From: Flavobacteriales bacterium
GTDB taxonomy: Bacteria; Bacteroidota; Bacteroidia; Flavobacteriales_D; Crocinitomicaceae
Length of the DNA stretch: 64,000 bases
Assembly: GCA_947463385.1 (NCBI GenBank)
Contig: CANHSL010000002.1
Span: 1-64,000 of the forward strand
Reading direction: 5' to 3'
A model generated the notes under the pieces. The model was not told the origin of the DNA. It did not search any database and saw only the letters and a program-made list of their open reading frames with translations. Below are positions 7,336-8,910 of this stretch, piece by piece (the stretch's first letter is position 1; each line of letters opens with the position of its first letter). The position numbers were made by a program, and so were the translations under genes.

Positions 7336-8259
7336 CTAACGCTTTTTCTTTCGCATGCCGCGCAAAAGAAGTTCGTGGAAGTTAACTAAAAAGACGCCTG
7401 AGAGCAAAACAAGCATAGAAATGAACTGCAAGTATGTGATTGATTCCTTTAAGATAAAACCAAAAAGTACAGCGAAGATGGGGATTAGGTAGGTGACGGA
7501 GCTCGCGAATATAGCGGAGGTTAATTTAATTAGCCGGTTAAAGTAAATGTTCGAAATAGCTGTCCCGATTACACCTAAAAGGACCACATACCCCAGGGCG
7601 GACCATCCAAACGGTTTATTTAGGATGTCTTCATGGGTGCCCTCGTATAGAAAACTAGATAAGGCGAAGGGGAGAATACAGAACAGTCCCAGCGATGTAA
7701 CTTCAAGTGGGCTGATGTGGCTTAATTTATGGCGAATGGTATTCACGCTGATCCCATAAAGTAGGGTGGCAATCAAAACAGCGCCAATGTGGGATGGGCT
7801 ATTTATTAAGGTTAAATCTCCTCCTGAAGTCACCAATGAAACGATGCCAACGGTACCAATCAATATGCCGACTACTTGCAACCAATGTACCTTAGTTTTA
7901 AATGCAATGAATGCAATGAGTACGGTGAAAATAGGAGTAAAACTATTAAGTATGCCACAAAATCCGCTGCTTAGGCCAGTGCCCGCATAGGTAAAAAGGT
8001 ACGAGGGTATAAAATTCCCACAAAGTCCTACGATTAATAAAAACGGAGCGCTTTTGGTCTTTAGTAACTTAATCGATCGAATAGCAAAGGGTAGCATCAC
8101 AAGGGCTGCTATGGTCATGCGCAACCCTGCAACTTGAAAGTGATTCATGGTGGGAAACCCTTGGACAGGCTCCATACCCAATTTCATTAAAATAAATGAG
8201 CTGCCCCACACGGCCCCGAGGATCACCAGAAGACCGATGCCGGCCAATTTGTTTTGCAT
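7336..8259 (-). CDS. EamA/DMT-superfamily transporter
   Basis: A 307-residue membrane protein of the drug/metabolite transporter superfamily with about ten hydrophobic segments and two EamA repeats (about 10-140 and 155-295). The first repeat begins GILLVILGAVWGSSFILMK-like and includes NHFQVAGLRM; the second includes LIATLLYGISVN and LGVIGTAISNIYFNRLI. The transported solute is unknown; relatives export amino acids, nucleosides or other metabolites. The ATG at 8259 (MQNKLAG) is chosen over a GTG at 8289, which lies inside a GTGG repeat that is more likely an operator. It is divergent from mraZ and shares its upstream region. Confidence 0.85.
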   Translation of the reverse strand: MQNKLAGIGLLVILGAVWGSSFILMKLGMEPVQGFPTMNHFQVAGLRMTIAALVMLPFAIRSIKLLKTKSAPFLLIVGLCGNFIPSYLFTYAGTGLSSGFCGILNSFTPIFTVLIAFIAFKTKVHWLQVVGILIGTVGIVSLVTSGGDLTLINSPSHIGAVLIATLLYGISVNTIRHKLSHISPLEVTSLGLFCILPFALSSFLYEGTHEDILNKPFGWSALGYVVLLGVIGTAISNIYFNRLIKLTSAIFASSVTYLIPIFAVLFGFILKESITYLQFISMLVLLSGVFLVNFHELLLRGMRKKKR

Positions 8260-8281
8260 GGTCAAAGGTAAGTTTTTAATA

Positions 8282-8299
8282 ATTACCACAAATTACCAC
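8282..8299 (-). promoter_or_regulatory. Candidate MraZ operator facing the EamA gene
   Basis: On the minus strand the sequence reads GTGGTAATTTGTGGTAAT: two GTGG cores exactly 10 bases apart. This is the spacing expected of MraZ boxes. It matches the element at 8403-8420 on the opposite strand. Confidence 0.5.
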
Positions 8300-8402
8300 T
8301 TTGTTTATTTTCCTAGAATCCTTTATTTATCTAGTAATTATTTTTTTATTCGATTCGATTGCTGTAATTTTACCAAATAAGTTATTAACAATTTAAAAAT
8401 CG

Positions 8403-8420
8403 GTGGTAAAAAGTGGGAGG
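8403..8420 (+). promoter_or_regulatory. Candidate MraZ operator upstream of mraZ
   Basis: The plus strand reads GTGGTAAAAAGTGGGAGG, two GTGG cores with a 10-base period, 32 bases before the mraZ start. MraZ proteins are known to bind repeated GTGG/TGGG motifs in their own promoter. A -7-like TAATTTTA lies at 8365-8372, which would put the operator just downstream of the transcription start. Confidence 0.65.
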
Positions 8421-8451
8421 AAATCTACTACTTTTACCCATTATTAACGCT

Positions 8452-8910
8452 ATGGCAGGTTTAGTTGGTGAGTTTGAAGTGAAGCTGGACACAAAGGGTC
8501 GGTTTCTATTTCCTTCCGGGTTACGGAAGCAGCTCGCCGCTAGTGCTCAGCGTGATTTTATGTTGAACAAGGGCTTTGAAGATTGCCTCACCTTGTATCC
8601 GCTTCCTGAATGGGAAAAGCTAAGTGCAAGTTTGAGTAAAATCAATCTTTTCAACCCTAAAAACAGGATGTTCTACCGTCTATTCCATCAAGGGGCCAAA
8701 CAGCTCACCTTGGATAATGCCGGTAGGTTATTGATTCCAGTTGCTCACATGGAACGCGTTGGCTTGGTGTCGGAAGTTATGCTCATTGCATACAACGACC
8801 GCATCGAAATCTGGGATCGGGCTAAATACTTCGAGATGATCGAAGGGAATATGCCTGACTTTGCCGACTTAGCGAATGAAGTAATGGGTGAAGGAAACAA
8901 TGAAGATTAA
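8452..8910 (+). CDS. mraZ: MraZ, transcriptional regulator of the division and cell-wall cluster
   Basis: A 152-residue protein with two AbrB/SpoVT-like DNA-binding domains. The family regulates its own dcw operon and can act as a repressor. The N-terminal half begins MAGLVGEFEVKLDTKGRFLFP; the second half repeats the pattern as LDNAGRLLIP, matching the conserved DxxGRxxxP motif twice. The ATG at 8452 is preferred to a GTG at 8413, which would place the operator repeat inside the coding region and add 13 non-conserved residues. It is the first gene of the cluster, and its last 11 bases overlap rsmH. Confidence 0.95.
   Translation: MAGLVGEFEVKLDTKGRFLFPSGLRKQLAASAQRDFMLNKGFEDCLTLYPLPEWEKLSASLSKINLFNPKNRMFYRLFHQGAKQLTLDNAGRLLIPVAHMERVGLVSEVMLIAYNDRIEIWDRAKYFEMIEGNMPDFADLANEVMGEGNNED

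Follow-up and report, generated by a model that had tools for sequence, protein, structure and literature searches.

The intergenic region between mraZ and a divergent EamA-family transporter gene carries two opposed pairs of GTGG boxes, and the question is which gene these boxes serve, and whether the two pairs act together. In the 64,000-nucleotide stretch of DNA analysed here (the window), mraZ, which in very many bacteria heads the division and cell-wall (dcw) cluster, occupies positions 8452..8910 of the plus strand (Pfam MraZ PF02381, E = 2e-29), and the transporter gene positions 7336..8259 of the minus strand (Pfam EamA PF00892, E = 2e-35). The element GTGGTAAnnnGTGG is present between them in opposite orientations, at 8403-8416 (+) and 8286-8299 (−). 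The proximal pair, GTGGTAAAAAGTGG (8403..8416, plus strand), has its GTGG cores at 8403-8406 and 8413-8416 and points toward mraZ (ATG at 8452, +); the distal pair, GTGGTAATTTGTGG (8286..8299, minus strand), has its cores at 8299-8296 and 8289-8286 and points toward the transporter gene (ATG at 8259, −). The first-pass annotation had described an inverted pair with a common core and a 10-base period, facing outward toward the two genes; this description is borne out, including the reality of the period. It had also proposed that both elements are MraZ boxes, and their letters do resemble such boxes, as GTGG-type repeats with a 10-bp period located upstream of mraZ. On the evidence given below we propose, with a probability of roughly 0.6, that the two elements are halves of one bipartite MraZ operator, which serves mraZ and the dcw cluster and probably closes a short DNA loop.

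The exact pattern GTGGTAANNNGTGG has only two matches in the window, which are the two box pairs themselves, and three in the whole 2.6-Mb genome; if two mismatches are allowed, the number of matches in the window is at the level of chance (14 observed vs 11 expected). A chance origin of the arrangement can be rejected from the rarity of the exact copies, together with the class-wide controls for spacer and orientation and the specificity for mraZ of the matches in a larger scan, both described below.

Other elements can be recognized in the same region. The candidate −7 element of the mraZ promoter, TACTTTTA (8429..8436, plus strand; TAnnTTTG type), was read from the sequence and is located 12 nt past the last proximal GTGG; a TAnnTTT(A/G) motif, which we take to be the −7 promoter element of Bacteroidota, is conserved at the same place throughout the class. 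The sequence TAATTTTA at 8365-8372, between the two clusters, could represent a second, upstream promoter element of mraZ, and exact TAnnTTTG forms occur at its position in related species of the subclade (L007-L010). Just upstream of the proximal boxes is a conserved element, AAGTTATTAACA (8379..8390, plus strand), which is almost invariant across the 30 same-genus mraZ loci described below; many genera of the class have it in a AAGTTWTCAACA form. This element resembles a DnaA box (8 of 9 positions in its TTATCAACA form) and is found at the same place in loci L004-L133. On the transporter side, the candidate EamA −7 element, TACCTTTG (8263..8270, minus strand), was likewise assigned by reading. 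It lies only 3 nt before the EamA ATG (window positions 8257-8270), and the EamA transcript may therefore be nearly leaderless. A scan of the intergenic region for sigma-70 promoters and terminators, which is ill-suited to Bacteroidota, found none.

Both box pairs were found in all 30 same-genus mraZ loci examined, the distal pair being the transporter-facing box for which the first-pass annotation had advised a search of related genomes. When these loci are aligned, each of the four GTGG cores shows 100% conservation, in contrast to most of the intervening DNA. The proximal sequence is nearly fixed as GTGGTAAAAAGTGG, with GTGGTAAAATGTGG as its one variant, and the spacer of the distal pair is variable. 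When distal and proximal boxes are compared in the same sense, their flanking base preferences agree (r = 0.57, vs −0.16 for the reverse-complement control), so that one protein probably recognizes both clusters.

In the window, 11 of the 14 bases of the proximal and distal clusters are reverse complements of each other, as would also be the case if the inverted repeat formed a secondary structure in the nucleic acid, or if the distal site were used by another GTGG-binding protein. We consider this very improbable. The proximal spacer hardly changes and the distal one is free to vary, without compensating changes between them, and the likely promoter element is downstream of the proximal boxes, so that the mRNA would not contain the two arms; moreover, the matches to the two-cluster pattern in a much larger collection of sequences are specific to mraZ.

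Whether the distal pair serves the divergent gene as an operator, through which MraZ would co-control EamA and the dcw cluster, can be judged from distances and from neighbours. In the window's subclade the distal pair keeps a constant distance of 26 nt to the EamA ATG and of 15 nt to TACCTTTG, as such an operator might; the latter spacing is conserved in this subclade only. In other species of the genus the distance to the EamA start, where readable, shifts to 73-76 nt, whereas the distance to the proximal mraZ boxes stays within narrow limits (103-104 nt in the window's subclade, 103-110 nt across all same-genus loci). An EamA match is absent at two of the same-genus loci: L012 ends about 500 nt past the distal pair, which may explain the missing gene, and L016 retains the distal pair beside a divergent open reading frame with no Pfam match. 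Outside the genus, in which the upstream gene is a divergent EamA, the pair is retained beside unrelated or co-directional genes: YchF in Lachnospiraceae, BshC in Alkalibacillus, DUF3040 in several Actinomycetota and Rrf2 in one phylum-level genome, all co-directional with mraZ, and an alpha/beta hydrolase or an EngB-like GTPase, both divergent, in Bacteroidota. Where the upstream gene is co-directional its promoter is not located in the intergenic stretch in question, and such a variety of neighbours does not fit an operator for the upstream gene. A transporter-specific operator as the main function is thus rejected on distances and neighbours alike, and the reading of the pair as an operator shared with the divergent gene appears quite unlikely. 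Of the joint control by MraZ that had been suggested for this region, the part that concerns mraZ and the dcw cluster is kept in the reading proposed here; control of the transporter as a main function is not, as the distal pair tracks mraZ and not EamA. Given that the distal pair is 15 nt from the putative TACCTTTG promoter element, some incidental control of EamA in the window's subclade is possible.

We have surveyed the class with a sample of one mraZ upstream region per genus (88 genera), chosen independently of the feature. At the proximal position the usual arrangement is a set of three GTGG boxes in direct orientation, repeated every 10 bp, with TAnnTTT(A/G) about 12 nt beyond them. 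Of the 88 genera, 19 have an inverted CCACn6CCAC between 125 and 175 nt ahead of the mraZ ATG; in the same stretch, ten other spacers (2 to 12) yielded 0-2 occurrences each and five in total, and the direct orientation, GTGGn6GTGG, was never found beyond 100 nt in these genera. In a whole-genome search of 247 genomes of the class the pattern was matched in 40, the reversed control pattern in far fewer, and the majority of the matches that could be placed are located at mraZ. The strict inverted pair is missing from the 125-175 nt stretch in 69 of the 88 genera, and in E. coli K-12 three direct proximal boxes but no inverted pair were found; the second cluster is therefore not essential to control by MraZ.

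At a larger scale, 257 Gb of contigs were scanned with the pattern CCACn6CCAC N68-98 (GTGGn6)x3. At least 80 loci match, and 76 of the 80 listed matches are directly upstream of mraZ, the frame of which begins 22-109 nt past the third GTGG (weakest HMM E-value 2e-31). A MraZ-family protein is thus encoded immediately downstream of the boxes in these loci as it is in the window. One of the four listed matches with no mraZ (L173) is at the edge of its locus, where the gene would be cut off. The listed matches belong mainly to Actinomycetota, and also to Lachnospiraceae, Lacticaseibacillus and Alkalibacillus (Bacillota), Bacteroidota and a Myxococcales MAG. The position of the boxes with respect to promoter-like sequences differs among phyla: in many Actinomycetota they come directly after a TTGAC-like −35 element, and −35/−10-like sequences precede them in E. 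coli K-12 and some phylum-level relatives. Whatever the arrangement, the boxes overlap or abut the likely core promoter, as the sites of a repressor would. One further locus (L193, CAMCAZ010000004.1) is on a contig with 61% G+C labelled Chryseobacterium gleum; the label looks wrong, and the sequence upstream of mraZ is nearly the same as that of L127 (family f10).

The distances between the distal and proximal clusters are not evenly distributed. The gaps of the 76 listed scan matches with mraZ fall at 69-76, 81-86 and 89-96 nt, with none at 77-80 or 87-88; outside the main scan we found gaps of 104 nt (five genomes of one genus) and 126 nt, and one locus at 80. The clusters near 72, 83 and 93 (also 104 and 126) are separated by near-helical steps. 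Among the 296 genomes of the phylum-level sample, none combined three boxes with a gap of 38-68 nt. For the statistics, a hand-compiled list was thinned to one gap per lineage unless values differed by at least 5, relatedness being handled by this thinning alone. For the thinned set (n = 59) the resultant length at 10.5 bp is R = 0.64; after removal of the main peak (n = 23) it is R = 0.52 (p ~0.002), and a simulation within the scanned range gives p = 0.0055. The period itself is loosely fixed, with values of 10-11.5 bp fitting the data. Arthrobacter, Microbacterium and Amycolatopsis are each represented among the listed matches by species whose gaps differ by about one or two turns. The periodicity might have arisen artefactually from the gain or loss of boxes in 10-bp units, but on the distal side this can be rejected: eroded boxes are not over-represented inward of the distal pair, one being present at the 10-bp register in 1 of 23 long-gap loci. 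A fourth proximal box has left remnants about equally often at short-gap (21 of 53) and long-gap (8 of 23) loci.

These data also bear on the hypothesis that the distal pair works with no loop, as a MraZ site in its own right, either by loading extra MraZ or by repressing or activating from afar through some other route, in which case the 10-bp steps would reflect only placement on the same face of the helix. Most of the loci examined in the window's genus are consistent with it: their gaps of 105-110 nt are out of phase, up to about half a turn off the 103-104 nt of the window's subclade, and are the main fact against strict phasing. The differences in box number and promoter position between phyla are also in its favour. 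Nevertheless, the inverted orientation is constant and the gaps cluster at turn-like steps across lineages, and box gain or loss leaves the steps on the distal side unexplained; we regard an independent site as rather doubtful.

What has been observed is that there are two clusters, that they are conserved and occur in several phyla, that they go with mraZ and not with the upstream gene, and that in many lineages the spacing between them is turn-like. For an inverted second array at such spacing, the simplest reading is that MraZ joins the arrays and bends the DNA between them into a loop, in the way that GalR loops gal. The first-pass annotation had already raised the possibility of a DNA loop; the near-helical spacing in many lineages, though not at most loci of the window's genus, lends this suggestion independent support. 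In the bipartite operator that we propose, the proximal direct GTGG boxes would overlap or touch the core promoter of mraZ, and the distal inverted pair, about 70-126 bp farther upstream, would be a second MraZ-binding cluster. A ring-forming MraZ oligomer would probably occupy both clusters at once, and by bridging them would close a short loop. The loop would hold the mraZ promoter off, with tighter autorepression as the presumed outcome. More generally, we give about even odds to the proposition that MraZ rings, in several phyla, bring opposed box arrays together in a short phased loop and so control the dcw cluster, a feature that would be missing from E. coli K-12, one of the species whose MraZ boxes have been described. 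A conserved, turn-spaced and inverted second operator would give the MraZ ring a concrete role, that of bridging two arrays, and Arthrobacter, Micrococcus, Microbacterium and Christiangramia are among the lineages suited to its study.

These results can be compared with what is known of MraZ and of repression loops. In published work, MraZ octamers occupy GTG repeats (PMC7761207, PMC5282649), and MraZ is reported to repress mraZ and the dcw genes, with repression described in E. coli and M. genitalium (PMC8475190). A search by sequence of the PDB returns several MraZ entries, including 1n0e, 9qlr, 9sx6 and 9qlg. In their direct GTG(G) repeats, 10-bp period and location at the mraZ core promoter, the boxes described here are like those of E. 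coli, Burkholderia and Mollicutes (PMC7761207, PMC5282649, PMC8475190), but the descriptions of those systems contain one proximal cluster, while here there is a second, inverted cluster of two boxes about 70-126 bp farther upstream. A description of such a second inverted MraZ cluster was not found in the literature searched, from which most subscription journals are excluded, so that its novelty is unproven. The repression loops of E. coli gal, lac and deo involve two operators about 70-120 bp apart near one promoter, with helical phasing; in gal the operators are about 113 bp apart, and GalR loops the DNA between them. The arrangement at mraZ resembles these systems in its two similar clusters near one promoter, which one protein would probably bind, and in their separation of roughly 70-120 bp; the turn-like spacing, seen in many lineages but not at most loci of the window's genus, may be a further likeness, as would be the proposed loop. 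It differs from them in its components, as gal, lac and deo rely on unrelated regulators and palindromic operators, whereas at mraZ inverted arrays of short repeats would be joined by a protein that forms rings.
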